This document shows, piece after piece, positions 38,874-60,529 of a stretch of 64,000 bases of DNA. Each line of letters begins with the position of its first letter. Positions within the stretch are counted from its first letter, which is position 1. Below the pieces are notes generated by a model. It was not told where the DNA came from and ran no database searches. It worked only from the letters and a program-made list of their open reading frames with translations. The position numbers were made by a program, and so were the translations under genes. The stretch comes from Oligoflexia bacterium. Its GTDB lineage: Bacteria > Bdellovibrionota_C > UBA2361 > JBGSMV01. Location of the stretch: assembly GCA_019694515.1 (NCBI GenBank), contig JAIBBU010000001.1:1-64000 (forward strand), read 5' to 3'.

Positions 38874-39164
38874 CTGTCATTGCGAGCGGAGCGAAGCAAT
38901 CCCTACCAATTTGCCCGGCAGTGCGCATCCTCCGAGCCAGCGGGTAAGGGGATTCTCTCCCCATTAAAGCTGGGTAAAGTAATGCGTGGCTTGGAGTTAG
39001 GGTTTGCTTCGCTTCGCTCGCAATGACACTGGGCTTCGCTTCGCTCGCAATGACACTGGGCTTCGCTTCGCTCGCAATGACACTGGGCTTCGCTTCGCTC
39101 GCAATGACACTGGGCTTCGCTTCGCTCGCAATGACACTGGGCTTCGCTCCGCTCGCAATGACAG
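38874..39164 (-). repeat. MITE-like element, family II, with expanded arm
   Basis: The left arm starts CTGTCATTGCGAGCGGAG at 38874. The interior (about 38905-39000) matches the family II filler of 51653-51809 and 56780-56935 in reverse (CCATTTTGCC-type end and the GGGGAATC hairpin). The right arm is present six times in a row up to 39164. The remainder of 38774-39251 has no gene. Confidence 0.75.
39002..39163. repeat. 27-bp tandem repeat, six units
   Basis: Six units of 27 bases, ending in CGCTCGCAATGACA, each being the terminal arm of the dispersed element plus a CTGGG joint. The first unit has GGGTTTG where the others have CTGGGC, and the last has CTCCGC for CTTCGC. The period is a multiple of three, so it reads as a 9-residue repeat in all frames, which produces misleading open frames. 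No spacers, so not a CRISPR array. Confidence 0.92.
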
Positions 39165-40833: not shown

Positions 40834-43800
40834 TTAAGCCTTTTCTCCATCGGGATTATCTATAATTCCCTCCACAAAGATACGCTCATCCGGGTTAGAG
40901 ATCTTGTCTAAGATCACGCGCTTCATAATTGCCCGCACATTCGTGGTGGGCTTGAGCCGCGCAGCGATAGTGCTGCTCTCTCCCAGCGAGAAAACGAATT
41001 TCGCCTCTTGGGCGTTCTCCTCGTCATTGTTCCAACGCCGGAAATTATCGCGGATTTTGTCTGCTACCTTGACCACTTCAAAAATCTGGTTAACCAGCTT
41101 CTTGCGTTCATCGGAGGCGAATTTCTGGCCATCGGACATGCGCTCGTTATTCACCACATAGTCCCAGAGAGCGTAGAACTCGGCCTGTGAGAGGTCGGCT
41201 AACTGCGGGACCTTCTTGGCCATCATCTCCGCCTCGTAGGGCAGGAATTTCTCGCTGCCATCCTTCTTTAGCGGCGGATATTCGACGTTAATCACGATTG
41301 CGCGGCGCAGCAGTTCCGCAGAGAGCTCATCGGTTGCTGCATAGCCATTTTTGGGATTCATGGTCGCCCCCAGTAATACTGTCGGGTCGACCTTGATGCT
41401 GGGACCGTGATTCATATTGATACGGCGCCGGGAGTCAGTCAGAGAGTTCAGCATTTTGAGCACGCCTTGAGAGGCGGTGTTGATTTCTCCAAGCGTAACA
41501 ATCGTGCCCGGTGTTTGCACTGATTGCACTAGGTTGGAGATCACTCTGACCGTACCTTCATTCGGCTTGAAGTCGGTATCGTGGGTCAGATCTTCCTTTT
41601 CAGTTTGTTGATTGAATGGAATGTCCTTCAATCCGCGCGCTGTAAAGTGTGCGAAGATTGACCAGAGCACATCTTTACCACAGCCGGTCTCACCCTTAAG
41701 TATCAAGATACCGCTTTGGTCATGCTCCTGTATGGCTAGTTCTTCAGCCATGCGGTCCAGATATCCCTTAGTCCAATCATTTAACACCCAGTTGGGGTCG
41801 AATTTGGGCACCTCTGGAATCGTTTTTTCGAAGAACAGATCGGCATCCATTCTGGTGGCGGTAACGGCTGCTGCGGTATCCGGTGAGTCGAGATCAAACG
41901 GTACCGGCTGCCAATCAGGACGATATTCTCTGCCCGCGTCATCGCGCCAGACCAGCACCCCCCGGTCCATCGAGTCGCCAATCGGCTTGACCGTGGGCTT
42001 CCAGAAGAGCCGACTTGCAGGAAAAACTGGAAACGTTTGCTCGAGGAACTTTACGGTATTCGCTCCGACCTGCAGATTCGAGTTTTGAACCTGCAGCAGC
42101 TCTTTTTTCCGCTGGTCCAGCAGCTCTTCCAATTTGCGTTCTTCTCGTTCGCGAAATTCCGCCGGTACATCGATCAGCAGCGCGGTATGCCTCAACAACA
42201 ACGGATTTCTTGTGCGCCAGCGCGAAAGTTCCGTCGTATGCCCGATTTCTTTAAGAGCATTTTCGATATCCCCCAGAATAGCACGCGAATCTTCAAGCGC
42301 TTGAGCGATACGCGTCATGCGCTCTTGGTCTTCGCGGCATTGCTTGGAGTTGATCCGTTCTTCAGCCGTGCGCAGCAGCTCTTTGTAACGCTTACGCCAG
42401 TCGTCGCGCTTCTCCTCATCTACGATCAGTGCAGTAATACGCTCGAATTCAACAAATTCGCTGGAAACTTTGAGAGCGCTCAATTCCTTTAGAAAATGAG
42501 TGTCCTCCACCAGCTCCCGTATTTTGGGGAACGCGGCCCCCAGCTCCTTGTCGAGCTCGCCTCCCAGCCTTTTCTTGATTTCCATGGTTTGATCGCGGAC
42601 TGTTTCGTACTCGCTATCAACGCGCTGGCGCAGCGTGGTATCAACCAGAGTGAGGCTCTCCCGCAGTGCGCGAATTTCGCTCCACTGCTTATTCAAGCCA
42701 ATCAGATGTTCGGTACCCCACTTGGTCTGAGACAGGACTTTAGCGTGCTGCTTTAAGAGGCTCAGCAGACGCTCGGCTTCGAGTCCGTCGATTTTGTCGG
42801 CAATCAAGGTATCGACGGCCGCGAATACCTCGGGATATTCCGAATAGGTGGGCTGTTCCTTTAACTGTTCGACCCGCGCTGCTAAAGTGCGCAAAGCCTC
42901 TACTGTTCCCGCCTTTTCGACCTCGGGGGTGAGGCTCTCGGTTACCTGGGTCTTGGTCTTTTCGATGATATCTTGGCGATAGCTATCGACACGCGGAGCC
43001 GTCGGTGCTGCGGCGGCTTCCTTAGCCGCCTGGGGTTGAACCGGCGGCAAATTGATAATACGTGATTCCGAAAGCAATGCTTCAAGTCTGCGTCGTTCAA
43101 GTTCACGGGCTTCAGCCAGTCCATTCGGGCTGAACTCATGGATATTGGTGGCGGCCTGGCGCAAGCGCCCTGTTGAGTCGTGATAGAAAATATCTCCATG
43201 CTGATTGAAATCGAACACCTGTCCGACGTCCGGGATTCGTCCAGCGGGTTCCAAGGTGTCGCGTTCCAGTAGAACAATTGAGCGCGATCCCTTGTCTTCG
43301 CAAAGTACTGCCAGGAAATTTCCGTGCGGGTCGAAGCGCATCGCCACGGCCTCCCCGTCGATCGGCAGAGCGTGGTTAACGATTGTCACATTACGCGTAC
43401 CGTTTCGACCGGAGCTCGCCAGCAGATCAACGCTCTTCAGTACCCCATCAGGACTGATGAAGAACAGATTGCCGCGGCGTCCCGGATCAGTGGTGTAGCA
43501 AAGGGCCTGCTCATTCAACATGCGCGTGCCCTCGCGGTTGCCGACAATTGTCAGCACCTTACTTTTTAGATTTGCTGAAAAACCTAGGCCGTCGATCTGC
43601 CGGCCGCCGGAACTGTCGGCATATTCGGCGAGAATCGGCGTCTCCGCAATTTGCTCCGGACTAATGCGGGTGCGGTCATTAATCTGCGTTTTCTTCCAGC
43701 GCTCGATCGGCAGCGGTCGTAGATCCTCGTCAACCGTACGATAAACGAAGAGCGCCTTGCCCCGTTCCAGGATAATGTACTTCTCTGCTTCGTCTGTGGA

Positions 43801-44298
43801 GAGCCGAAATTCGAGCGTTGTGATTAACTCGTCCTTTAACGAATCCAACGTCGAGGCAGAGATACGGCCATTATCTTTGCCTGTGCGCTGCAGGAACGTC
43901 TTAAGCGCGACGGTTTCGCGCTCGTTCATTTCCAACTGTAACGTGAGGTCTTTGAAATTCAAGGTGGACCCACCGGCTTTCGCCGGATCGAGAGTGATCG
44001 ATTCTTTGCCGAGCGAGCGGAGATATTCGGCAATAAAACCGGCTTCGAGTACTAAGTGCGGGAAGAAATCTTTGGGAATTGCAACGGTCCGCTGAGATTG
44101 ATCAAAGAGGGTATAGTCCGTCCCTTGCCCGCTATTACGCTGCACCAAAACATAACTATTGGTAGCCGCTACGCCCGTTACCGCATCCCCCGCTTCGCTG
44201 AACAGATCTTCGGGCATCACGTTTACCTGCAGTGCGATGGTTCCAGCACGACGAGCGGTTTCGGTTGTTTTTGCTCTGCCAGCGGTACTTATTGTCAC
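40834..44298 (-). CDS. giant MoxR-like AAA protein with altered Walker motifs
   Basis: 1154 residues from a GTG at 44298 with GGAGG upstream; the GTGA overlaps the TGA of the VWA gene. Residues about 1-400 are beta-rich, including propeller-like strands ('AVAMRFDPHGNFLAVLCED', 'GQVFDFNQHGDIFYHD'). About 410-750 is charged and coiled-coil-like. An AAA+ domain fills about 850-1140. Its Walker A is GETGCGKD (869-876; Asp876 replaces Ser/Thr), its Walker B is TIVTLGEIN (Gly937 replaces Asp, Glu938 kept), sensor 1 is 'LLGATMNP' and a probable arginine finger is in 'AELLRRAIVINV'. MoxR-type ATPases remodel partners together with VWA proteins, and the next gene encodes one. Whether ATP is hydrolysed is doubtful. 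Confidence 0.8.
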   Translation of the reverse strand: MTISTAGRAKTTETARRAGTIALQVNVMPEDLFSEAGDAVTGVAATNSYVLVQRNSGQGTDYTLFDQSQRTVAIPKDFFPHLVLEAGFIAEYLRSLGKESITLDPAKAGGSTLNFKDLTLQLEMNERETVALKTFLQRTGKDNGRISASTLDSLKDELITTLEFRLSTDEAEKYIILERGKALFVYRTVDEDLRPLPIERWKKTQINDRTRISPEQIAETPILAEYADSSGGRQIDGLGFSANLKSKVLTIVGNREGTRMLNEQALCYTTDPGRRGNLFFISPDGVLKSVDLLASSGRNGTRNVTIVNHALPIDGEAVAMRFDPHGNFLAVLCEDKGSRSIVLLERDTLEPAGRIPDVGQVFDFNQHGDIFYHDSTGRLRQAATNIHEFSPNGLAEARELERRRLEALLSESRIINLPPVQPQAAKEAAAAPTAPRVDSYRQDIIEKTKTQVTESLTPEVEKAGTVEALRTLAARVEQLKEQPTYSEYPEVFAAVDTLIADKIDGLEAERLLSLLKQHAKVLSQTKWGTEHLIGLNKQWSEIRALRESLTLVDTTLRQRVDSEYETVRDQTMEIKKRLGGELDKELGAAFPKIRELVEDTHFLKELSALKVSSEFVEFERITALIVDEEKRDDWRKRYKELLRTAEERINSKQCREDQERMTRIAQALEDSRAILGDIENALKEIGHTTELSRWRTRNPLLLRHTALLIDVPAEFREREERKLEELLDQRKKELLQVQNSNLQVGANTVKFLEQTFPVFPASRLFWKPTVKPIGDSMDRGVLVWRDDAGREYRPDWQPVPFDLDSPDTAAAVTATRMDADLFFEKTIPEVPKFDPNWVLNDWTKGYLDRMAEELAIQEHDQSGILILKGETGCGKDVLWSIFAHFTARGLKDIPFNQQTEKEDLTHDTDFKPNEGTVRVISNLVQSVQTPGTIVTLGEINTASQGVLKMLNSLTDSRRRINMNHGPSIKVDPTVLLGATMNPKNGYAATDELSAELLRRAIVINVEYPPLKKDGSEKFLPYEAEMMAKKVPQLADLSQAEFYALWDYVVNNERMSDGQKFASDERKKLVNQIFEVVKVADKIRDNFRRWNNDEENAQEAKFVFSLGESSTIAARLKPTTNVRAIMKRVILDKISNPDERIFVEGIIDNPDGEKA

Positions 44299-46655
44299 GA
44301 TCTTACACCTCCAGTTAGATGAAAAGTTTTACGCATTATTTTGGCCAGGGCCCGCAGGGCTTCGTCGGGCAATTGATGAAAATCGGACGGCGCAACCACG
44401 TTGCGCTCACCGAAATAAGCCTTAGCTTCGCGAATATGCGGAGCATCGTTGGCGAGGTTGAAATTCATCACTACATATTTTTCTTGAGCTTTGCGGATCT
44501 CCGCGACGAGATCTTCTGCCACGAGGCCCTTATTGGCGCCTCCGTCAGAGAAAACGAAAACCGCACCAAAATGATCGCGGTGCTTTTTCAGCATCGAATT
44601 CATTTGAGCGATGGTTGGAAGAAGCGCCGCCCCAATATCGGAATGCTCTTCTTTGGCGCTAGTGAGCTGCATGAGTTTTGGCTTAACCTTGAAAATCGGA
44701 TTGTCGTAGTCTTGGTCGAAGCGCTTAATCTCCGTGGGCTGTTCGCCGATCAGGGTAATCGCGAAGGGAATGCCAAAGCTTTTTAGTGCGCGGGCCATGA
44801 AGACCGCCGCTTTTCGGGCCTGTCCGATTTTGTCATTTTTCAGCATGGATTTGGTGTTGTCTACCAGTAGCGCCACGATCATCCGCGGTTCTGTGGAGTC
44901 GATCGGAATGCGGCGTAATTGAATGCGCAGATCGCCAACCGGGACTTTTCTAGCCAGGACGCGGGTGTCGAGTTTGCTGCCTGTAAAGAAATGCTCCGAT
45001 CCATATCCCCAGGTTCTCTTCTTGGGCAAAAACGGGGCGAGCTCGGTGACGAAGCGTTGAAGTTTTCCTGTAACTGAGCGCTCCAGAGCCAGATAATTTC
45101 GAAATTCGGTTTCTTCCGCTGGGGTAAATCCGTTTTGTTCTAGGCGCCGGCGCTGCAGCTCTGCGCGCTTTTTGAGACCATTAGCCCGGGCGCTGCGCAG
45201 CTCCTCGTCCTCGGAGGAGCTGGGAGCAGCCGGGGCGCGATCGATCCCCAGCTCTTGGGCCAAGCGCGCTACTTCATCCTCCTTTTTTTGAAGCTCGTCG
45301 TCGGATGGAGCTTCGGCAAAATTCTGCGATGCGTCCTTATCAGAGGCAGATTTAGTCGTGATACCGGCGGGGAGTTCGCGCTTCAATGCAGCACCGACGA
45401 TTCCTCCGATCTTAAGCCGTGCCGCGCTTTCGAGTGTGGCGCGGTGAGACTGATTCAAATTTGCGGCGACGGTGTCGAGAGCTGATTGGATCTCAGGCGG
45501 CAAGACACTTAGATCTACTTCGTTTGGAGTAGCGGGGCCCGGAGCCGCTGTTTTTTTTGATTTCGAGCGCTTCTCGGAGACCGCCCCTTGCCCTTTCAGT
45601 TCGCTGGTCAAAACCCGCTTAAGGTGCTCCCCGCCGTTTAAAGCGATCAGCTCCTTCAGCTCCTGCTCCGCGGGAGTTAAAGAGGGCGACTTAGGTTTAA
45701 TTCTGAACAGTTTTTGGAAGGTGCGGCTTAATTTCGTTTGAAATTTGCGCTCTTCCTGCTGCTCACGCATGAAGGTCGTCGCAATCTGCAGCGCGACTCC
45801 GCGCTTAATCTGCTCCTCGATTCCCAGAGGCTCTAGGGCGCTGATTAAAGGCCAAATCTGCTTGCACAACAGAGCGTAATTGCGCGCATTTAGCGGCTCA
45901 AGCATATAGCTGTCGGTCAGCGGTGAGGCAGCGTTGGCAATCTCCAGCACCTTGGGGTTGCGAAGGTTTGGAATATCAGCGCCGCGCAGCCAGCGTCCGT
46001 AGACCAGATTCGTAGTAAATTGCAGGATCGGTGGGAGTTGATTGATGCTGCTGTCGATTTCAGCCAGCCGCTCCGCCATCGATTCAGCCAAAGTCTGCTT
46101 GGCGGCCGTGGAGCCCCCGGTGCTTTTTTGCAATACCCGCACCCGCTCAAGCGCGGTCTGGAGCAATCCGAAACTGTCCGGCGAAATCCCCTGTTCTTTG
46201 GCAAACTTTTGTCCTTCGAAGAGATATCGAAAATCGGTCGTGCGTGCGCCGGTAGCCTCCAGCCGGAGTTTGGCTAGGACCTGCTCTTCTGGCGCCAAGG
46301 CGATGTCGTCCAGGTTGTAGAAGATTGCTTTTGGTTCGAAGAGTTTCGGATCTAAGTCAAGCAGGGTTTGTCGCGTTCCGGCATTCAGTTCCTCGACCAG
46401 TTTAAGCGCCGCCCGGTCGACTGCGAGAGACCACCGTCCGTCGTCGGATGGCAAGACCTTGATTCCGTAGTTGCTTGAGAACAGTCGCGCCAGCTGCACG
46501 ATCTTGAAGCGCAGGTCCTGGGTCTCTTGTGCGCCGCGCGGAGTGCCAAGTCGTTCTTGCAGTTCTTCGCCTGAGATCTTGAGATCGCGCAGGATCTGAA
46601 AACGCTCTAGGTCGAGCGACTGGTCTGTTGTTTCGGTGGCTAATGCCGACGTCAT
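44295..46655 (-). CDS. VWA-domain protein, MoxR partner
   Basis: 786 residues. The N-terminal two-thirds is helical and charged with a low-complexity patch (about 350-520). A von Willebrand A domain lies at about 590-780 with the MIDAS motif VDNTKSM (D599; Thr replaces the first Ser of DxSxS), 'SDIGAALLPTIAQMNS' as the Thr/Ser site region, and 'VFVFSDGGANKG'. The layout (helical N-terminus, C-terminal VWA) is that of MoxR partners such as ViaA, NorD and CobT. It overlaps the AAA gene by four bases, so the two proteins are probably made in fixed ratio. Confidence 0.85.
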   Translation of the reverse strand: MTSALATETTDQSLDLERFQILRDLKISGEELQERLGTPRGAQETQDLRFKIVQLARLFSSNYGIKVLPSDDGRWSLAVDRAALKLVEELNAGTRQTLLDLDPKLFEPKAIFYNLDDIALAPEEQVLAKLRLEATGARTTDFRYLFEGQKFAKEQGISPDSFGLLQTALERVRVLQKSTGGSTAAKQTLAESMAERLAEIDSSINQLPPILQFTTNLVYGRWLRGADIPNLRNPKVLEIANAASPLTDSYMLEPLNARNYALLCKQIWPLISALEPLGIEEQIKRGVALQIATTFMREQQEERKFQTKLSRTFQKLFRIKPKSPSLTPAEQELKELIALNGGEHLKRVLTSELKGQGAVSEKRSKSKKTAAPGPATPNEVDLSVLPPEIQSALDTVAANLNQSHRATLESAARLKIGGIVGAALKRELPAGITTKSASDKDASQNFAEAPSDDELQKKEDEVARLAQELGIDRAPAAPSSSEDEELRSARANGLKKRAELQRRRLEQNGFTPAEETEFRNYLALERSVTGKLQRFVTELAPFLPKKRTWGYGSEHFFTGSKLDTRVLARKVPVGDLRIQLRRIPIDSTEPRMIVALLVDNTKSMLKNDKIGQARKAAVFMARALKSFGIPFAITLIGEQPTEIKRFDQDYDNPIFKVKPKLMQLTSAKEEHSDIGAALLPTIAQMNSMLKKHRDHFGAVFVFSDGGANKGLVAEDLVAEIRKAQEKYVVMNFNLANDAPHIREAKAYFGERNVVAPSDFHQLPDEALRALAKIMRKTFHLTGGVRS

Positions 46656-46803
46656 AAACTCTTTGCTTGCTCTTGACGTCCGGTAGATCGGATTCGCGAT
46701 ATGGAAACAGCTCTAAATCTGCAACCGTCCCACCCCCGCGCTCATTCCCCGGTTCATCCGCTCACATTGTTTATGCTCGAAAAGAATGAAAGTGTACGGG
46801 CGC

Positions 46804-48957
46804 TTAGTGGATCGGTGCGGATGGAGCTTGGTCCGGTTGTTCTAGGCTATTTGGCGCGGCCGCGGTCTCCGTCCCACCGTCGGCTTGATGACGCTCGATC
46901 GTTTCCCGCAGCACTTCCCGTAAGCCTTCCTCCAGCTGCCCCTGCTCCTCGATCTCCGCTGTAGTCGGTGCGAATTTGGTTCTCAAAAGTTCCTTGGACT
47001 CAGCGTTTAGCTCGGGGAAATCGCCCTGTACCGGAACGGTTTTATAGTCGTAGATCTTACGCTCGCCATTCTCCTCTCGCTCCCAGCGCAGTTCGGACCA
47101 GGGCACCTGGCTCTGGCTCATGCTGATCATGCGCTCATAGGGCATGTCCTCGGGCGCAATGGTGGATTTCGCGCCGGGCTGGTCATACCGGCCTTTGATC
47201 CGCACTGCCATCCGCATAGTAGCCTGCTGCACAGCCTGCTCGACATGTCTGCCGTTTCCGAAGTGGATCCCTTCTCTAGCTTTGAGGATCTCCATCAATA
47301 CGCTGCCGGCGCTCAGTACCTCAGAACTATATGAGAATTTATACCGGCCCATCTGCAGCTTCATGATGTCGATCAGCTGTCCGTTACTGTAGTCCTCGAA
47401 ATTAATCACGAAGGAAATTCGAGACTTCAGCCCGCTATTCGATTCCAGGAAAGGGATCATTTCCTTAGGATAACCGGCAAATATACCTACCATCCGATCG
47501 CGATAGTTGTAGAGATTGGGAACGATTGTATCGATCGATTCGCGTCCGTATGCGTCATTATTGTCGCGCGCTAAGCTGTATGCTTCATCTAGAAAGAAAA
47601 CACCGTCTAAGGCTTCCAGCATTTTCTTGTTGGTGAGAGGAGCGGTCTGTCCCGCATATTCCGCCACGATATCATTGCGCTTGACCTCAATCGTGTGACC
47701 CTTCTTTAGGAAGCCTGAGGCGCATAACAGCCTTCCAATCAGCCGCGCCACGGTGGTTTTTCCGACTCCCGGTGACCCGATCATGCAGATATGAACGGTA
47801 ATATTGAGATCGGGAAGACCTTCGAGCTTACGCGCATAGTTAAGCTTGACCACCTCCATGATCTCTTCCACCAGAGACTTCACATTTTTGAGCCCAATTA
47901 GTTCATGCAGCTCCTGGTAAGCCTTCTGATACATCTCGAGATTGGTTCCCGGTACTCCATCCATCAGCACCGGTAACTCTTCCGGTTTAGGCTTGATCGG
48001 ATAGCTGTTGGGTGGCGGGAGTTTGTCCTTGATCGCATCCTGCAGCAAATCTTCTTTTACCCCAAAACCATCCTCTTTCAGCCCCTTGACCCAAGCACCT
48101 TTAAAGGAGGTTTTAGGAAGCTCGGGAGCGGGAGCGGTCTTGGTCTGCTGCGCGGCCTTGGTGCGCTCTTGCTGCTTTTCCTCTTCAGATTTCTGGGGCG
48201 GAGGGGAGCTTCGAAATACCGCCCGCATGGTATTAGCTTCGACTAAGTGCGCCTCGGTGAAATCGATATCGACTCCCAGTGCTTGGAACATGCGGGCCCG
48301 ATACATGTCGGCTTTATGGAACTTGGCCCGATCAAGCATCGTCCCAATCAGCACTACATTTTGCATCTGGGCCTGAATAAAGCTCCCGTCCACTAGAGTA
48401 GCGTGATTCAGCGTGGCGTGATTAAAGATGGCATAGTCGAAATTTCCGCCAGCCAGTTCGGCTCGCGATAGGACGGCCGCTGTAAAATCACAACCATCGG
48501 CGCGTTGCACCTGACGAAAGATTACATGGTTGCCTTTGGCGTGCTCAAAGTGCGCCTGATTGAGAAAAGTCTTGCTGAAATCGGCTTGGTCCACGGTCGC
48601 CGATTCGAAGTGCGCGCCCTCCAGATTGCAGCCGATCAGGTTAGCCCGGGTGAGGTTGCAATGAGCGAGATTGATGCCCTTGAGATCGCGGTGCGATAGA
48701 TCGATTCCCGTAAGATCAATGGAGGTCGAAGGCCTTAGCGAGTTGAACTGCTGGACATCTCCGGAGAGCAGCAGTTCTCGCAATTTATGCTGAAGCTCGG
48801 TTGAGTTGGCGCTAACCGCCCGCTCAAAATCACTCTGAGAGGGAGGTACAGCGCTGCCGTTCTCTGAAATGGCAGGCACCGGCGGTAAGGCTCCCGGGGA
48901 GCTTGGCTCCCCGGGTTTGAAGAGGTTCGTGTGAGGATCAGCTGCTGCCCCGTTCAT
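46804..48957 (-). CDS. pentapeptide-repeat/CbxX-type AAA+ ATPase fusion
   Basis: 717 residues with AAGGAG before the ATG. About 70-245 is a pentapeptide-repeat beta-helix: 'IDLSHRDLKGINLAHCNLTR', 'ADFSKTFLNQAHF', 'AIFNHATLNHATL'. About 350-610 is an AAA+ domain of the CbxX/CfxQ/SpoVK/EccA group: Walker A GSPGVGKTT (about 391-399), Walker B FFLDEAYSL, arginine-finger region 'GLKSRISFVINFEDY'. Here all nucleotide residues are canonical. Pentapeptide repeats can mimic DNA or bind membrane-associated partners. The last 100 residues are acidic and Ala/Glu-rich. It is separated from TelA by 17 bases. Confidence 0.9.
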   Translation of the reverse strand: MNGAAADPHTNLFKPGEPSSPGALPPVPAISENGSAVPPSQSDFERAVSANSTELQHKLRELLLSGDVQQFNSLRPSTSIDLTGIDLSHRDLKGINLAHCNLTRANLIGCNLEGAHFESATVDQADFSKTFLNQAHFEHAKGNHVIFRQVQRADGCDFTAAVLSRAELAGGNFDYAIFNHATLNHATLVDGSFIQAQMQNVVLIGTMLDRAKFHKADMYRARMFQALGVDIDFTEAHLVEANTMRAVFRSSPPPQKSEEEKQQERTKAAQQTKTAPAPELPKTSFKGAWVKGLKEDGFGVKEDLLQDAIKDKLPPPNSYPIKPKPEELPVLMDGVPGTNLEMYQKAYQELHELIGLKNVKSLVEEIMEVVKLNYARKLEGLPDLNITVHICMIGSPGVGKTTVARLIGRLLCASGFLKKGHTIEVKRNDIVAEYAGQTAPLTNKKMLEALDGVFFLDEAYSLARDNNDAYGRESIDTIVPNLYNYRDRMVGIFAGYPKEMIPFLESNSGLKSRISFVINFEDYSNGQLIDIMKLQMGRYKFSYSSEVLSAGSVLMEILKAREGIHFGNGRHVEQAVQQATMRMAVRIKGRYDQPGAKSTIAPEDMPYERMISMSQSQVPWSELRWEREENGERKIYDYKTVPVQGDFPELNAESKELLRTKFAPTTAEIEEQGQLEEGLREVLRETIERHQADGGTETAAAPNSLEQPDQAPSAPIH

Positions 48958-48974
48958 TCACAGCTCCTTTTTTA

Positions 48975-50291
48975 CTAAGCCGCTTCGTCCAGGCTGCTGC
49001 CTTCTTCGTCAAGTTTGACGACCTCCAGCATCTTCATCAGCGTTTCGAGATCATTGCCGCGCTCAGCGAACTTCGCCTCGATGTCGTCCAGTTTCTGTGC
49101 GGCCTGAGCTAGTTTCTTGCGGTTCTCGACAAACGCATTGTTGATCGAATCCGATAGGACCTTTTGCGCCTGGGCCGACTTTTCCAGCAGCGCGACACTG
49201 ACTCCGGGCTTTCCGGCTTCGGCAAAGATGGTCTGCAATGCCTTGTCCAGGTTTTGCATGTTGATATCCACCAATTTATTGGTGAATTCTTCGCTGGCCT
49301 CGACGACTGCATTTAGTCCCTGCAGCTCGCGAATGCTGATGGCTTCGTCGATCTTGACCGTCCAGACCATGTCCTGAATCTGGAGCTGGTTCTTTAGCTT
49401 CGTGATGCCGATGCCCATGCCCTCTCTGATCATGCGGAAGTTATCTCCGCTCTGCCGGAGCATGGTGCGCATAGCCTTGACATGCGCCAGCTTCATGTCG
49501 AGCGCAGTCAAGGTCTGCTTCATCTGATGGATGTTTTCCAGGTCTTCATCATCAAAATGATCAAGCTTCTTTAGGCGATCACATTCCTTACGGTACTTCT
49601 CCTCGGTTTCGGAGATCTTCTCCTCCACCACGGCGCCTACAATCGTAAGTTGCGCGACGGTTCCTTTTACGTCTTTGATCTTGCCCGCCAAGCGGTTGTA
49701 GAAGAGCTCGACCTGGACGGCTTTGGTTTGGGTGGCGGTTCGGATTTCACCCATTAGATCCTGCATCTTCTCCCGTCCATCGATGAACTTCTTTAGCTTA
49801 TCGATCTTTACGAACGGCAGGGCACTGGCGAGCCTTTCCCACCAGGCTACGTTTAGATTTCCAATTCCAAGCTCCTGGAATTTCCGTTTCATGGCCTGTG
49901 CCAGCTCTCCGACCTCGCCCAGCTCTGCGGCCTTCACATTCTCTTTAAGGAACTTGGTGCCTTCTCGAGCAGTGCTGCGGGCACGCTCCTGGTAGTCGGC
50001 TCCGAAGTTATCGATCTCCATAGCGTCCCGGAGATTGGACTTGGCGGCGACATCCTTGACCATGCGGAGCTGTTCTTCCGTGAGCCGTGAGCGCAAGGCT
50101 CTTCCAACCTTCACGCTCATAACCTCCGGAAGTTCTGGGATGCGGCTAGGATCCGCCGAACGCTCTACGCCTGCCGTAGGCAGCACCGCGCCTTCGGTTT
50201 TTTCTTCCGTGGCCTGGGCTGCCATCTGAGCTAGTACGTTCAAGTCTGCGCTGGCGTTTGAGGGGGCCGGTGTTGTCACTGGTTCAGTCAT
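48975..50291 (-). CDS. telA: TelA family protein (toxic anion resistance)
   Basis: 438 residues, PF05816-like. The Pro/Thr-rich first 45 residues are followed by a helical bundle; key segments are 'AMEIDNFGADYQERA' (about 92-106), 'LKKLDHFDDEDLENI', 'LAHVKAMRTMLRQSGDNFRMI', and 'VWTVKIDEAISIRELQGLNA'. TelA occurs in tellurite- and stress-resistance (Ter-like) gene neighbourhoods and is often next to XpaC-like genes. Its ATG overlaps the stop of the upstream gene (ATGA) and has GGAG upstream. Confidence 0.9.
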   Translation of the reverse strand: MTEPVTTPAPSNASADLNVLAQMAAQATEEKTEGAVLPTAGVERSADPSRIPELPEVMSVKVGRALRSRLTEEQLRMVKDVAAKSNLRDAMEIDNFGADYQERARSTAREGTKFLKENVKAAELGEVGELAQAMKRKFQELGIGNLNVAWWERLASALPFVKIDKLKKFIDGREKMQDLMGEIRTATQTKAVQVELFYNRLAGKIKDVKGTVAQLTIVGAVVEEKISETEEKYRKECDRLKKLDHFDDEDLENIHQMKQTLTALDMKLAHVKAMRTMLRQSGDNFRMIREGMGIGITKLKNQLQIQDMVWTVKIDEAISIRELQGLNAVVEASEEFTNKLVDINMQNLDKALQTIFAEAGKPGVSVALLEKSAQAQKVLSDSINNAFVENRKKLAQAAQKLDDIEAKFAERGNDLETLMKMLEVVKLDEEGSSLDEAA

Positions 50292-50875
50292 TTGTTTCTC
50301 CTTGTCTTTGAAATTAAAGTTCGAAATAATCTGCCACCTAAATTTGCTGCTCCCATCGAGGCTTTGATTAGCGGATCAACAATTTGCTCTTTGACCTCTT
50401 CGGCGGAGGGAGTTTGAGGTTCATCAGCCAGCGAACGGCCTGAGCCGCTCATGCGCGCCATTAGACTGTCATGCGTTTTTTCAGTAGCGGTTGCTGCGCG
50501 GATCAATCGATCTGCATCCTGCAAATCGGAGCTCAGCTCGTCCCCCAGATCCTTTAGAGCAGCTTCGGGGTTGATCGCGCTGCTACGGTCAACAGGGGTT
50601 CCCGTTACCTCACGATGAATGCGGTCGATGCCATCGACGGCCAGAACATCCTCGACGCTGACCGCTCGCGCCGCCCTTTTGGCAGCAGCTCGCTCACTCT
50701 CAGAAAGACGGCTTGCCAGGCTTCGCGGGGCGCTCGTTTCGCCTACATCCGCTGCAATTTCGTCAATCGGAATTTCTGGTACGCGGCTCGAATCCAGCAC
50801 ATCAGCCGGCACCTCGGGCGCTGCCGCACCACCGGGGGGTGGCACGATGGGGTTAGTTGGCACCGGATCCGGCAT
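50288..50875 (-). CDS. TelA N-terminal-like small protein
   Basis: 195 residues from the third codon of MIM (ATG at 50875), placed six bases after GAGGAGG. Not a known family, but residues about 28-85 parallel the TelA N-terminus: SRVPEIP against SRIPELP, then SLASRLSESER against ALRSRLTEEQL, then EDVLAVDGIDRI against RDAMEIDNFGADY. The C-terminal half is different and ends in a basic TLISKTRRNK. I infer a shortened TelA paralogue or an assembly partner that uses the same docking module. It overlaps its two neighbours. Confidence 0.6.
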   Translation of the reverse strand: MPDPVPTNPIVPPPGGAAAPEVPADVLDSSRVPEIPIDEIAADVGETSAPRSLASRLSESERAAAKRAARAVSVEDVLAVDGIDRIHREVTGTPVDRSSAINPEAALKDLGDELSSDLQDADRLIRAATATEKTHDSLMARMSGSGRSLADEPQTPSAEEVKEQIVDPLIKASMGAANLGGRLFRTLISKTRRNK

Positions 50876-51419
50876 GATCATCCTCCTCAGTTAAACTTTC
50901 GAGATTTGGCAATCGAACGCCGTAGCGCTGAATGAAACTCGCGAGAGTGCGGTTGTGAGCCTCAAGGTTGGCGATCGTGCCGCCACTCATGTCTTTTTCG
51001 AATTGCCGTACCGTCGTGGCTAGGTCGGAGATGTGTTCGGCAGTAGCAATTAACTCAGGATTTTGTCCCGTCAGATCGGCGCGGTGCAGCCGGGCATGCT
51101 CGCGGACCATTTCCGGGACGAGCTGCAGCACCGGGGGTACATCTCTAGCGTAGAAAATTCCTTCGGGATAACTTTCGCAGCGGGCAGTAATACGGCCGAC
51201 TGTCTGGCAGAGGTCCTCGACTGTATCTCGGAGTGAACGCGAGATCAGCTCCTCGCGCGCCTCTCTGATCTGAGTCACCATTGAATTGCAGCTAGCTATA
51301 AAGCTGTCGCGGTAATCCTCGGTGATGCCGGGGGGCATGGAGGCCTGACGCAGCTCCGATGCTGTCGCGGCCTTGGGTTTGCCGATGCCGATTCTGTTAA
51401 GGAGCTCTCCCAGACCCAT
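50853..51419 (-). CDS. XpaC-like protein
   Basis: 188 residues, soluble, helical. The central part ('LRDTVEDLCQTVGRITARCE', 'VPPVLQLVPEMVREHARL', 'ISDLATTVRQFEKDM') resembles XpaC (5-bromo-4-chloroindolyl phosphate hydrolysis protein family), which commonly neighbours telA in Firmicutes. The typical N-terminal membrane helices of XpaC are not evident; instead there is a short 'MGLGELLNRIGIGKPK' start. It overlaps the next gene by 23 bases. First gene of the six-gene set, after a 405-base gap. XpaC assignment is tentative. Confidence 0.5.
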   Translation of the reverse strand: MGLGELLNRIGIGKPKAATASELRQASMPPGITEDYRDSFIASCNSMVTQIREAREELISRSLRDTVEDLCQTVGRITARCESYPEGIFYARDVPPVLQLVPEMVREHARLHRADLTGQNPELIATAEHISDLATTVRQFEKDMSGGTIANLEAHNRTLASFIQRYGVRLPNLESLTEEDDHAGSGAN

Positions 51420-51652: not shown

Positions 51653-51809
51653 CTGTCATTGCGAGCGAAGCGAAGCAAACTCTAACGCTACGGCACTGAT
51701 CGCTTTACATGACCTTAATTGGGAGGGGACCCCCCCTCGCTTCTTGCTTCGGGTCTGCGCAGCTCCAGGCGAAATGGTAGGGATTGCTTCGCTCCGCTCG
51801 CAATGACAG
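51653..51809 (+). repeat. MITE-like element, family II
   Basis: 157 bp: arm CTGTCATTGCGAGCGAAG, filler with a G-run/C-run hairpin around ACCCCCCCTCG, and inverted arm ending CAATGACAG. It sits in the 405-base gap (51420-51824) between the helicase gene and the XpaC-like gene; the other bases of that gap hold no gene and must contain the promoter of the six-gene set. Confidence 0.8.
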
Positions 51810-51824
51810 CACTGTAGAGGCCGT

Positions 51825-54800
51825 TTAGCTTATTATGCTCCGGGAGGCTTCTGCTGTAAGGCCGTAACGAACAACCACTCTGTCGACTACTAAGACGAGC
51901 TGACCGTTGTGCTGTCGAAGAATTCCGTTCTTTATCAGCCGTGCCACAGTTCCGTCGACCTGCAATCGATTCTCCGGATGTTCTACCTCAATTCCCAGAA
52001 GCTGCAGTGTGCTGCTGGTTAGTTGTGCAGCTTCAATCCCACAGGCATTTTTAGCAGCCAATATGGTCGCCGCTTCGATTTCTTCCGGGGAGATTCGGCC
52101 AATCAATCGCAGTGTGCCATCGAGGGCCGAGCGATCTCGAATCGCGATCGGAACTCCATCGGGGGCATAGAGAAACTCCCCCTGTTTTTTGATCTGCGAA
52201 GCCCTCAGCGCATCGGTCTCCGCTGCCTCGAAAGCCTGAATCAGCTCAGGTGCCGCCGTGTTTATACCGAATGCCATCCGCACCCGTTTGAAGGCCTCGT
52301 CACGATGGATGGGCGATTCGATACTTACCACTGCCCCGATGATAGTACGCAGATCTTCGATCGACGGTTGTTGACCGGAAGCGCCCTCAATATTTATCTG
52401 CGCCCTAGTGTAGGGCGTTACGATTCCTTCGGCCGCGCTGGCGAAGCGCGATTCGCGCTTGACCTCATGTTTAATCGGACGGTCGGCGCTTTCGAAAAGA
52501 GCGGGAGGGAGCTGCTGTCTTAGCTCGGTGAGGTGCTTGAGCAATTTTTCAGTCTGCGCCTCGGGGCTCTTTATCCAGTCGATAATCCACATGCGGTGCA
52601 GATTCCAACCACGCTTTTCGAGCGCTTCGGGCACTAACCGCTCCCGTTCGCGCGCCGAGTCCAGCTGCTGATAAACAGGTCCGTCCATCATGATGCCCAT
52701 TAGGAACCGCGAGCTGTCCCGGGGATCGACGACAGCTAGATCGAGTTTAATATTTGAAAGTCCGACATTTGACTCCACTTGGTAGCCTTTGGCTTCTAAA
52801 GCGGCTTTTACTGCGCTTTGGAAGGGATTTTCGACGCCGGTGCTGGCTTGAGCAGGTTGCTCCAGTGCACCCGAAGCAGCGTACTGCAAATATGATTTAA
52901 GAATGCGGCGCGCTTCAATCGTGGGTGAACCGATATCAAGGTCCTGCGGCGCAATTACGCTCAAAATGTCAGTGCTACGGCGGGCGCGGGTCATCAAGAC
53001 GTTCAGAGCGCGTTCAGGTTGAGGCAGGCTCAGGAAGCTAAGTGAGTCTCCGTGGCCCGCAGGTCCTTGGGAGTTAACCAGAATCACGATCTTATCGCGC
53101 TCATCACCCTGAGCATTCTGTACGGTCTTGACGAAGAAAGGCTCAGTCGTATGCGCTGCAAGGTAGCGTTTCAATCGCTCATTGCTGCCGGCTAGTTTTT
53201 CGACCGCCAAGGTGAGCTCCAAAGCTTCGGCCTCCGTGCCTACAATCATGCCGATTGATTCGTCCGGTGCTGTGTCTATATGTGCGAGCAAGGTGGTGAT
53301 TGCTTGCTTTGAAAGTTCGGTCTGGTTGACCTTGGTAAAGGTTAAGCCGGTCGCCGCCTTGCCGCGCTCACAGTCGGGCATGGTGGCAAGCAAGCCTCCG
53401 TAGAATTCTGTATTTGCCACCTTGATCATCCCCTCCCGAAGGCTGCGGTGATGCCAATTTAAGGTGCGTTTTGAAACGCCGGCGCGATTGAGCAGCTGCA
53501 AAATATTTTCGGGCGCCTGCTCCGCTACCGGCGCGCGATCTTCAAAGGTCGTCGATGGAGCCAGTTGTTTGCTGTCCCCAAAGACCACTACCTGGGAACT
53601 GCGCATCAGGGGACTGAGTGCGCGTATCGGCATGATTTGACTGCCCTCGTCAAATACCACCAGGTCAAAATCGATTGCTCCACGGGGCAGGAATTGCGCT
53701 GCTGTCTGCGGCGTCATCAAGAAGATCGGTTTTGTGGCCTGCAGAGCTTGACCAGCCTTGCCGAGCAGCTCGCGTAGTGGCAGCAGGTCTCGGTCTTTCT
53801 TCAGTTCATCGCACAGGACGCCATTTTGACCGCCCGTGTCGATACGGGGGATACCGCCCCAATGCCTTAGTGCCACGGCGGCGGCATTTTGCGAGAGTAG
53901 TTTGCGGTCGGCTTCCCGAAATTCCTCTATATATTTTTCATGCAGCGCATCTTTAAATTCGCCGGATGCCGGTGAATAGTTCAAAAAGTCCTCAGCTAGG
54001 CCCGAGAACCAACAGCTGCGCAGAGCCTCTTTAAGTTTTGTGCCCGAGGCTTCCCAGCTTTGTGCTTTGCGCACCAACTCTTCTTTTCCCGGGAACTCGA
54101 CGGAATTCAACAGCTCGACATAGCCGGCCAGCTCCTTTAGGCGATCAAGATTAGCCGCCCAGCCATTGATTGTAGTTTCTTGATCGGCGATCGATTGATG
54201 CGATAGTTTTTTATCGAAGAGCTCAGGATCAAAGCGCATGCGCTCACGCAGCTCCTGACGGGCCGCCAGGAAGTCGTCTATGGCTTGCTCTGCCTGATCC
54301 AGCTTGCCGCTATCGACCAAGGCGTAAAGCCGCTTGGGAGACTTGATTAATGCGCAAAATTTGTCGAATTCAGGGTGGGCGCTGGCCCGTTCGGTGAAGA
54401 GATTGAGGAAGCCCACGACGAATTCGAGCTGATTCCAGAAGGTCTGATCGCGGTTGGGCCCAGGGGTCCAACGCTCACCAAAGGTCTTCTTCCACTCAGG
54501 AGCTCCCCGTTCTGCTACAATTTTTAGTTTCTGAAATTCGATCAGCCGGTCGACTAGCTTGGCCTTGTCCGCAGTCTCTTCCGGCATTTTCCCGGGGAGG
54601 CATAACTCTCTAATGGCGCTTTCCAATATGGGGAGATTTTCCGAGGCGGGCTCTCCGCGGCTATGCAGCCGCACCTCATAATCAAGCAATTTTTTTAGAC
54701 GGTCTAAATTGGGAACACGCCATGCGTCCGGCTTGACCATCTTCCCAAGTTCGCTGCGCATTCTAAAGAACTGGCGGCCCGTGTTGATGACATTTGCAAC

Positions 54801-56519
54801 GCTCTCTTTGCTGCTGCGAAATACCGGACTGCTAAGCTCTACCTGACTGAAAAGAGCGCCGTCTTCGGTATAGAAATCGCTGATAAATCTTAGGAGCTGG
54901 ATCGAGCTCTTCAGCTCGGAGGCGGTCGCTTGTGTATTTAACCCCAGCTCTCCTAATACTGCATGGACTGCAGAGCGGGCCGCCGTTCCGCTCTCTGCGA
55001 CATGCTTCAGGGCGCCTTTGAGCGGTTCAATGTCGCGCAAGTCGGAACTTGTTAGGTGACACCCAAAAAAGGGGTGTGAAGACGGCATCCCGTTACTGGA
55101 GTAGTAGCGTTGTAAGCTATCACAGAGCCGTTCTGCGGCAGCGTAATCTTTGGCTGTCCATTGCCGCATCTCGGGGCTATCGAGGTCTAATAAATCTTGG
55201 TCGCGGCTGCGGTAGGCGATAAACTGGCTTAGCGCCTCATATCCGGTCACGCCCGAGCTTCTAATCTCGGAGGTAAGTGCTTTGGCGTGGTTATTTAGCC
55301 GGATCAGAGCTAATTCCAGGCGATCGACGGTCACTTCCCGTGCGATCTGAATCGGTTTACCGAGGTTGCGGGTCCGTCGAACCTCTTCGAGTACCGCAGC
55401 GCTTTTAGCCGAATCAGCGTATAGATCGAGCGCCAGGTCACCGAGCCCGCAGTTAGTTAACCATTTGCGAACCACCTGCAGCGCCGCTTTCTTTTCCGCG
55501 ATAACTAGGACGCGCTTCCCGGCTGACGCCGCGTTAACCAGCAAGTTTGCGAGAGTTGTGGTTTTGCCAGTGCCGGGGGGCCCCTCGACTACCAGGCTTT
55601 GTCCTCTAACGGCATCATCGATCACCCGGATTTGGGAGCTGTCGGCGTTCAGCACATCAAGGCATTCAAGCGGACCGCGCCGTTCATCGACGTTTTCGTG
55701 GGGGCGAATGAAGCTACTCTTCGCTGCAAACCCCTGCGCGAATAGCGCTGCTACAAAGGGGTTTAACCAGGGCTTGGCGTGCTCCGGCCAGTTATCCGGG
55801 TCCAGGTCGTCGAGTATGACCTGATTGCTAAAAGAGAACACAGCAGCGACGGCATGGGATGGCTCTACCCGACACTGTAGTGGGCTTGATTCCATAGCAC
55901 CCTTTAACGCTTCTAGATCAAGCGCTAGCGTTTGATGCTTGAGCGTTGGCAGCTCCAGCCGATAGCGGGTCTTGAGCACACGCGCTAGTGCGGGATTGAC
56001 CTGCCACTGAGAATCAGGTCCTGAAATCGAAAGCTCTCGAGTTTCGGGGTCTCTCCGGATTTCAATTGGCAGTAGCAATAGTGGAGCCGAGAAGCTCTTC
56101 CCAGATTTGGCATCGCTCCAACTGGCGGCGCCAATTCCGATGAAGAGCGAGTGTACCCCTCGTTCCTGTTGATAGAGTTGAGCTTGGTGTTCGAGAGTGA
56201 TCCAACGATCCTGCGAGCCCTCGATCTTTACTTTTTTGCCCGTAAGTAGATCGTCGATTAATGATGGTAGAGCTGCGGAGTCTAAGTGCACGCCCTCGGA
56301 GGAGCTGGCGGCTGCGGCGTTAAGCAGCGGATTTTCCAGCTCCCGTTCGATTAGCTGGGCCGAAGCTCGAGCTAGTCCGGCGCGCACCGCCATTTCGGTG
56401 CTTTGGTCTTCGCCCAGGCGATCAAAGTCGACGAGGTTGGATTTTTGGGACGAAGTGTTGGGGACCGCCTGGGGATTGCGGTTCTCAGCCTGCACTGTAA
56501 ATTTCAGATCCCCGCCCAC
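51825..56519 (-). CDS. DUF4011-like/SF1 helicase/DUF3320-like protein
   Basis: 1564 residues, starting at GTG. About 1-230 resembles DUF4011 ('FSAPLLLLPIEIRRDPETRE'). An SF1B Dna2/NAM7-like helicase follows: Walker A EGPPGTGKTTT (about 307-317), motif II 'FDEGSQ', 'VVFGDSKQLAPSTTF', and 'LPQPERALNVLMTRARRS'. About 1240-1350 is a Vsr/MTES_1575-type endonuclease-like domain ('GYQVESNVGLSNIKLDLAVV', 'ERERLVPEALEKRGWNLHRM'), but the usual I-E-x-D-G is I-M-M-D-G (M1277). The C-terminus is DUF3320-like ('VVSIESPIHRDEAFKRV'). Proteins of this layout include single-gene phage defence systems. It may belong functionally with the downstream set. Confidence 0.85.
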   Translation of the reverse strand: MGGDLKFTVQAENRNPQAVPNTSSQKSNLVDFDRLGEDQSTEMAVRAGLARASAQLIERELENPLLNAAAASSSEGVHLDSAALPSLIDDLLTGKKVKIEGSQDRWITLEHQAQLYQQERGVHSLFIGIGAASWSDAKSGKSFSAPLLLLPIEIRRDPETRELSISGPDSQWQVNPALARVLKTRYRLELPTLKHQTLALDLEALKGAMESSPLQCRVEPSHAVAAVFSFSNQVILDDLDPDNWPEHAKPWLNPFVAALFAQGFAAKSSFIRPHENVDERRGPLECLDVLNADSSQIRVIDDAVRGQSLVVEGPPGTGKTTTLANLLVNAASAGKRVLVIAEKKAALQVVRKWLTNCGLGDLALDLYADSAKSAAVLEEVRRTRNLGKPIQIAREVTVDRLELALIRLNNHAKALTSEIRSSGVTGYEALSQFIAYRSRDQDLLDLDSPEMRQWTAKDYAAAERLCDSLQRYYSSNGMPSSHPFFGCHLTSSDLRDIEPLKGALKHVAESGTAARSAVHAVLGELGLNTQATASELKSSIQLLRFISDFYTEDGALFSQVELSSPVFRSSKESVANVINTGRQFFRMRSELGKMVKPDAWRVPNLDRLKKLLDYEVRLHSRGEPASENLPILESAIRELCLPGKMPEETADKAKLVDRLIEFQKLKIVAERGAPEWKKTFGERWTPGPNRDQTFWNQLEFVVGFLNLFTERASAHPEFDKFCALIKSPKRLYALVDSGKLDQAEQAIDDFLAARQELRERMRFDPELFDKKLSHQSIADQETTINGWAANLDRLKELAGYVELLNSVEFPGKEELVRKAQSWEASGTKLKEALRSCWFSGLAEDFLNYSPASGEFKDALHEKYIEEFREADRKLLSQNAAAVALRHWGGIPRIDTGGQNGVLCDELKKDRDLLPLRELLGKAGQALQATKPIFLMTPQTAAQFLPRGAIDFDLVVFDEGSQIMPIRALSPLMRSSQVVVFGDSKQLAPSTTFEDRAPVAEQAPENILQLLNRAGVSKRTLNWHHRSLREGMIKVANTEFYGGLLATMPDCERGKAATGLTFTKVNQTELSKQAITTLLAHIDTAPDESIGMIVGTEAEALELTLAVEKLAGSNERLKRYLAAHTTEPFFVKTVQNAQGDERDKIVILVNSQGPAGHGDSLSFLSLPQPERALNVLMTRARRSTDILSVIAPQDLDIGSPTIEARRILKSYLQYAASGALEQPAQASTGVENPFQSAVKAALEAKGYQVESNVGLSNIKLDLAVVDPRDSSRFLMGIMMDGPVYQQLDSARERERLVPEALEKRGWNLHRMWIIDWIKSPEAQTEKLLKHLTELRQQLPPALFESADRPIKHEVKRESRFASAAEGIVTPYTRAQINIEGASGQQPSIEDLRTIIGAVVSIESPIHRDEAFKRVRMAFGINTAAPELIQAFEAAETDALRASQIKKQGEFLYAPDGVPIAIRDRSALDGTLRLIGRISPEEIEAATILAAKNACGIEAAQLTSSTLQLLGIEVEHPENRLQVDGTVARLIKNGILRQHNGQLVLVVDRVVVRYGLTAEASRSIIS

Positions 56520-56779: not shown

Positions 56780-56935
56780 CTGTCATTGCGAGCGGAGCGA
56801 AGCAAACCCTAACGCTATGGCATTCATCGCTTTACATGACTTTAATGGGGAGGGGATCCCCTTCCCCCTTTCGTCGGGGTCTACGCAGCTCCAGGCAAAA
56901 TGGTAGGGATTGCTTCGCTCCGCTCGCAATGACAG
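56780..56935 (+). repeat. MITE-like element, family II
   Basis: 156 bp, same arms and filler as at 51653-51809. It occupies the middle of the gap 56520-57079; the rest has no gene, with repeat-like flanks near 56936-57000. Confidence 0.8.
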
Positions 56936-57079
56936 ATCAAAGCGCCCTTGCAGGAACTTCATCACCAGCGCGGCATTTCTGTCCTAGAAATATGTAACAT
57001 CTACCGCTCCTCATGTCGTAGGCGGGCGAAGGAGAGAGCCATCCCTCCCTTTGCCCGCCGCTGCGAAGCCGAGCTCGCC

Positions 57080-59602: not shown

Positions 59603-60529
59603 ATGCAGCAAACCATTCAGCCGGAAGGCCAAAGAGCCGCCGTATCAACGTCCGCGGTACAGCCGTCCTCGGAGCTGGAAGTGCAGAGTTTTGGCGCTGG
59701 GGTTCGTGCTGTGACGGAAAGCGGCGAAGCTAGCCTGACCCCAAATGAAAATCCGACAGCTGCGCGCATGGCCTGGAGCGACACGGAGCAGCGGCTACTC
59801 GACGGGCCGCACGGCCGCTTAACGGAGTTACGGGATCTGCTGCATATTATGAGGGAGTTCATGGCTGCCTTTCGCGCGATGCACTTTATCGGACCATGCG
59901 TGACGGTCTTTGGCTCTGCGCGCTTTTCTGACGATCATCCCTACTATCAACAGGCACGCGAGATCGGCGCAAGACTCGCCCAGATCGGCTTTGCGGTGGT
60001 AACCGGGGGCGGTCCAGGTATTATGGAAGCTGCAAATCGCGGCGCGCAGGAGGCCGGCGGATTGTCGGTGGGAGCCAGCATCGAGCTGCCCTTTGAACAG
60101 AAATTTAATCGGTTTCTTGATAAGCATGTGCACTTTGATTTTTTCTTTGTTCGGAAACTAATGCTGCGCAAGTACTCCTGCGGCTTCATCGCGCTGCCGG
60201 GGGGTTACGGAACATTGGATGAGATTTTTGAAGTTTTAACCCATATTAAGACCGGAAAGATGAAACACTTTCCCGTGGTCTTGGTGGGTAAAGAGTATTG
60301 GGGCGGGATGATGGAGTTTCTCAGGAAGAATTCCCTGGGAGAAAAGACAATCAATCAAGAGGAACTCGATTCCATCTTTCTCACCGACTCACCGGAAGAG
60401 GCGGTGCAGCATGTCTTGAAGGTGTCTCAGGAACAGTTCGGGGTAAAGCGCGCCAAAGCGCCGAAACCCTCGAAGCTACTTTTTGAGAAACGGGCGATTC
60501 CCCATTCACAGCTTTTTCGAAATCTTTAA
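59603..60529 (+). CDS. LOG family (lysine decarboxylase-like) protein
   Basis: 308 residues. An unusual, probably disordered N-terminal extension (about 1-75), then a Rossmann-like LOG domain with 'VTGGGPGIMEAANRGAQEAG' and the phosphoribohydrolase motif PGGYGTLDE. LOG proteins cleave cytokinin or purine nucleoside 5'-monophosphates to base and ribose 5-phosphate; the family is often misnamed lysine decarboxylase. Divergent from the receiver gene, with 196 bases between the two starts for promoters. Confidence 0.9.
   Translation: MQQTIQPEGQRAAVSTSAVQPSSELEVQSFGAGVRAVTESGEASLTPNENPTAARMAWSDTEQRLLDGPHGRLTELRDLLHIMREFMAAFRAMHFIGPCVTVFGSARFSDDHPYYQQAREIGARLAQIGFAVVTGGGPGIMEAANRGAQEAGGLSVGASIELPFEQKFNRFLDKHVHFDFFFVRKLMLRKYSCGFIALPGGYGTLDEIFEVLTHIKTGKMKHFPVVLVGKEYWGGMMEFLRKNSLGEKTINQEELDSIFLTDSPEEAVQHVLKVSQEQFGVKRAKAPKPSKLLFEKRAIPHSQLFRNL

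Follow-up and report, generated by a model that had tools for sequence, protein, structure and literature searches.

A set of six genes, whose products are predicted to be soluble and include two different AAA+ motors, is present in the stretch of 64,000 nucleotides analyzed here (hereafter the window). These genes fall into two modules: module A encodes an XpaC-like protein, a small protein resembling the TelA N-terminus, TelA, and a pentapeptide/CbxX AAA+ fusion, and module B encodes a VWA protein and a giant AAA+ protein. We tentatively read the locus as a soluble two-motor remodeling set, in which a TelA-XpaC assembly would be handled by the two AAA+ motors, with a helicase beside them, and we give this reading a probability of about 0.4. 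The two modules probably work together, as a distant relative, the Bdellovibrionales MAG HKST-UBA20 (G019), carries the same parts, in two places.

Layout of the six-gene set

All six ORFs are present with intact frames on the minus strand (40834–51419). They are transcribed in the order XpaC-like (50853–51419, 188 aa), small TelA-N-terminus-like gene 5 (50288–50881, 197 aa), TelA (48975–50291, 438 aa), pentapeptide/CbxX AAA+ (46804–48957, 717 aa), VWA (44295–46655, 786 aa), and giant AAA+ (40834–44298, 1154 residues). The first four genes are tightly packed, with overlaps followed by 17 bases before the pentapeptide/CbxX gene. The VWA gene begins 148 bases after the latter and shares four bases with the giant AAA+ gene (GTGA, 44295–44298). 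The initial annotation had described six same-strand, overlapping genes, and this description held: the GTGA overlap was found, as was the ATGA overlap between gene 5 and TelA (50288–50291), while the XpaC-like and gene 5 ORFs share 29 bases when gene 5 is read from its first ATG (50881) and the 23 bases first described when it is read from the second (50875). The names TelA, pentapeptide/CbxX AAA, VWA, and MoxR-like AAA also stood, as Pfam assigned these families, although narrowly for VWA. A seventh gene on the same strand, encoding a helicase (51825–56519) and not counted in the set by the initial annotation, is located about 400 bases upstream of the six, and the gap contains a repeat element.

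Module A: a TelA/XpaC-like pair beside an AAA+ motor

TelA and XpaC proteins are widespread stress factors. In Listeria, lmo1966-lmo1967, an operon of the XpaC-TelA type, reacts to a bacteriocin that acts on membranes, and mutation of telA makes the cells more sensitive to both nisin and tellurite (PMC12791056). The window set resembles such XpaC-TelA (YaaN) pairs in that an XpaC-like protein adjoins TelA and the Pfam families are passed or approached, but it adds a TelA-like gene, a pentapeptide/CbxX motor, and a nearby helicase. The window TelA is divergent and matches PF05816 with 45.8 bits (cut-off 30). The XpaC-like protein, taken alone, falls below the PF10112 threshold (E 0.031); its G019 counterpart (L030:8966-9517) passes with 32.4 bits (cut-off 29.8), and the two proteins match each other with a pairwise E of 1e-5. 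The XpaC-like label is therefore valid only through the G019 counterpart. A DUF6866_C identity for this protein was dropped, as its match in the window is below threshold and G019 gave none. Gene 5, which had been proposed to encode a TelA-module protein, has no Pfam match, but about 60 of its residues are similar to the N-terminus of the window TelA (pairwise E 1e-4). No separate ORF corresponding to gene 5 was seen in G019.

By a simple hydropathy scan, all six proteins lack a predicted membrane segment. The maximum hydropathy of the XpaC-like partner is 0.73 in the window and 0.69 in G019, versus 1.87–2.71 in the small neighbors of three ordinary TelA loci of the phylum; it should be noted that none of these three control proteins matches PF10112. 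The ordinary TelA loci thus have a neighbor with a membrane segment, and the window set has none. From these sequence features, we predict that the TelA-XpaC pair is soluble here and has no membrane anchor, which makes the initial suggestion that the motors act on TelA-bound membrane unlikely as far as an integral arrangement is concerned. A TelA/XpaC pair lacking a membrane anchor and standing beside dedicated AAA+ motors would represent a soluble, testable form of these proteins. Beside one ordinary TelA gene of the phylum, and convergent with it, a gene at L096:6749-7423 encodes a small protein whose membrane domain is of the superinfection-immunity type (PF14373).

The motor of module A combines pentapeptide repeats (Pfam Pentapeptide, 1e-25), expected to form a beta-solenoid, with a SpoVK/CbbX/EccA-like AAA domain (AAA, 6e-10; AAA_lid_6), in which both Walker A and Walker B are kept. 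Streptomyces right-handed beta-helix proteins likewise fuse a solenoid N-terminus to CbxX/SpoVK/EccA-type AAA+; the window protein differs from them in having a pentapeptide solenoid, one AAA+ domain, and a genetic link to TelA.

Module B: a VWA protein and a giant AAA+ protein

The giant protein belongs to the MoxR/midasin/NorQ class (AAA_5, 7.4e-20), and its partner matches VWA (4.7e-5) narrowly above the curated cut-off. In the predicted model of the VWA protein (mean pLDDT 75.9), the best solved matches are the Rea1 MIDAS domain and NorD. The model of the giant protein has a mean pLDDT of 71.2 and a pTM of 0.37, a value that makes its domain arrangement unreliable; its AAA+ domain is nearest to CbbQ/NorQ, in agreement with the sequence search. 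Three regions can be distinguished: a beta-rich N-terminus (residues ~20–385), a helical middle (~394–740), and the AAA+ domain (~840–1150). Based on the strand pattern, we suspect a beta-propeller in the N-terminal part, the top fold matches covering the AAA+ domain alone. By predicted fold, module B is a NorQD/midasin-like pair. Both partners have their best predicted-fold matches in the NorQ-NorD, CbbQ-CbbO, and midasin (Rea1) AAA+/VWA machines. In contrast to those machines, the window AAA+ protein has roughly four times the size and bears beta-rich and helical N-terminal parts, the VWA protein has a zincin-like N-terminus, and no target enzyme is encoded nearby.

Several catalytic positions have changed in the window proteins. 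In its N-terminal region, the VWA protein reads LEATGA where its closest relatives have HEVGHA, and the zincin motif (HExxH) is lost. Its MIDAS is DNTKS, with Thr for Ser. The giant AAA+ protein keeps Walker A, but its Walker B is GEIN, with Gly for Asp, where most relatives have DEIN, DEVN, or DEID. Module B might therefore be non-catalytic or decaying in the window. These losses were read from assembled metagenome-type sequence; those of the zincin motif and of the helicase nuclease site described below affect several positions, and the Walker B change a single residue.

The neighboring helicase

The SF1 helicase (1564 residues; DUF4011, AAA_11/12, MTES_1575, DUF3320) is a full-length match to PADLOC PDC-S37 (996 bits, residues 78–1541) and keeps most helicase motifs, as do PDC-S37/Hhe DUF4011 helicases. 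It differs from these in adjoining a TelA module and in lacking the nuclease residues: the MTES_1575 site FE/IECDG/YH has become FQ/IMMDG/YQ, with the Asp of the ID motif kept. These residues are present in Hymenobacter and Azospirillum homologs and missing from all three phylum genomes that encode a PDC-S37 helicase (the window, G019 at L030:3938-8788, and G021 at L070:7179-12542). As the loss is common to G019 and G021, it is old. Plasmids often carry helicases of this family, and the two plasmid loci inspected had none of the rest of the set. A LOG-family gene is found a few kb from the helicase both in the window (59603–60529) and in G021 (L070:1285-2100), with 51% identity between the two products.

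Distribution of the two modules

Among 46 genomes of the phylum (38 in one of the searches), modules A and B were found together in two, the window genome and G019, which belong to different families of one taxonomic order. G019 was the only other genome in which TelA of the window type, a full-length pentapeptide/CbxX fusion, or the VWA-giant AAA+ pair was found; the chance of a single genome with A coinciding with a single genome with B would be 1/45, a figure not corrected for ancestry. Other members of the G019 family have neither module. On one contig of G019, the order is helicase (divergent), XpaC, TelA, and pentapeptide/CbxX, with the helicase within about 200 bases of module A and unrelated genes on both sides. 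The pentapeptide/CbxX homolog directly after TelA is full length, with 35–37% identity. Another G019 contig carries the VWA gene and, cut off by the contig end, the AAA+ gene up to residue 435. Upstream of this pair is a gene for a 1546-residue protein with a HEFAH motif and an ABC1-kinase-like region (L014:3067-7707). Only the window showed all six genes in a row, and a single conserved six-gene operon was rejected, since G019 has the parts on separate contigs. The other TelA genes of the phylum (in G014, G035, and G044, plus a weaker match from G019) had no other parts of the set within the stretches read.

Outside the phylum, a VWA protein of the module B type was detected in 9/288 Peregrinibacteria and Gracilibacteria genomes (E <= 1e-20), in most cases with an AAA+ gene next door, and the TelA family was not found in those genomes with VWA-AAA+ pairs. 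This zincin-like VWA-MoxR pair of candidate phyla radiation bacteria appears to be an uncharacterized NorQD-like family. The Gracilibacteria pairs (L058, L059, L060, L062, and L063) are readable with TGA as glycine, and small paralogous proteins with a common N-terminal motif surround the pair in L059 and L061. Two relatives emerged from a scan of 84,980 species, in which absence means little because only two short peptide patterns were used. No matches were obtained for VWA against plasmids and phages (tblastn) or for TelA against plasmids, and viral contigs gave only ordinary CbxX proteins, none adjoining another part of the set. No paper joining TelA, XpaC, and MoxR was found in a literature search whose scope left aside most subscription journals and Ter-system papers.

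The prospect that all six genes recur together in unrelated genomes was thus borne out in part: both modules are present in a genome of another family, but on separate contigs, and module B occurs in other phyla without TelA. Likewise, the proposal of the initial annotation that the combination is one machine gains from the presence of both halves in the sole other phylum genome with either full-length half, but they do not form one conserved block.

Proposed function and alternative explanations

In our preferred reading, module A would provide a helical complex of the TelA-XpaC type that lacks a membrane anchor, together with a CbxX/SpoVK-type AAA+ motor bearing a pentapeptide beta-solenoid. 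The VWA protein of module B would use its metal site to hold a client by an acidic residue, and the ring formed by the giant AAA+ protein would pull the client or let it go. The client would most likely be the TelA-XpaC assembly or something attached to it, and envelope or chromosome stress would be the likeliest trigger. The helicase, with its degraded nuclease, would probably bind or sense DNA as a partner of module A. What we infer here is that the two modules act jointly, which client they have, in which direction they act, and what triggers them. It is doubtful that the locus defines a novel class, in which a NorQD-like pair and a pentapeptide-CbxX motor would act on a membrane-free TelA-XpaC and be coupled to a nuclease-dead DUF4011 helicase, sensing or containing DNA or envelope stress.

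A joint system is favored because of the co-occurrence in 2/46 genomes, the same module A order in G019, and the adjacency of the helicase in both. The co-occurrence could also be inherited rather than functional. It is quite possible that two unrelated sets have simply become neighbors, one being a TelA stress module plus helicase and the other a NorQD-like VWA-MoxR pair that acts on a different client, as the separate contigs in G019, the VWA-MoxR pairs without TelA in Peregrinibacteria and Gracilibacteria, and the 148-base gap between the modules would suggest; yet both modules are patchy, and the only other phylum genome with a full-length A is also the only other one with a full-length B. 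Outright decay into a mostly non-functional locus is very improbable. The catalytic residues lost from the VWA, AAA+, and helicase proteins (HEVGHA to LEATGA, the GEIN Walker B, and the nuclease residues) and the repeat elements at 38.9, 51.7, and 56.8 kb are what one would expect of it, but no reading frame is broken across about 15 kb, both motors retain Walker A, the CbxX motor also retains Walker B, the helicase retains most of its motifs, and the nuclease loss, shared with G019 and G021, is old.

We consider it unlikely that the set is an anti-phage or anti-plasmid conflict system like the MoxR-vWA ternary systems (Kaur et al. 2020, PMC7159879), in which case the helicase would act as sensor and the inactive nuclease and zincin would serve as binding domains. 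These systems resemble the window set in having a MoxR-vWA pair with another AAA+ protein, superstructure-forming repeats, and inactive enzyme domains, the last being a stated feature of theirs (PMC7159879), and both the 996-bit PDC-S37 match and the patchy distribution fit such a role. However, Pfam and NCBIfam revealed no VMAP, iSTAND, FtsH, effector, or VWA propeller domain in the six proteins, the beta-rich domain is on the AAA+ protein and not on VWA, and TelA is not mentioned in the ternary-system paper (PMC7159879). As each of the four published classes needs a component that was not found here, the window set is not filed among them, although it may work similarly. In addition, members of the helicase family also occur by themselves, and all three phylum carriers have a degraded nuclease site in this helicase.

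Surroundings and repeat elements

The genes around the set are housekeeping or ordinary ones (MlaE, UvrD, RecJ, a sigma-54 regulator, a PAS histidine kinase, the LOG family, and Tad-type genes), and no tRNA, mobility, or other clear defense genes were found around it in the window. This does not fit the expectation of a defense island, which likewise counts against a conflict system; the helicase is a candidate defense gene in PADLOC and adjoins the set in both the window and G019. PADLOC also matched the UvrD protein and the sigma-54 regulator, owing to shared helicase and AAA domains. An RHS-repeat protein is encoded at 61444–63990.

An element of about 155 bases with 32-base inverted ends (TGTCATTGCGAGCG...) is present at 38875–39028, 51653–51809, and 56780–56936; the second copy is located between the helicase and XpaC-like genes and the third upstream of the helicase. 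It looks like a small non-autonomous repeat. That these repeats delimit a transposable cassette was set aside, as the window contains 19 occurrences of the end sequence (0 expected). At 39004–39163, the element end forms a tandem repeat with a period of 27 bases.
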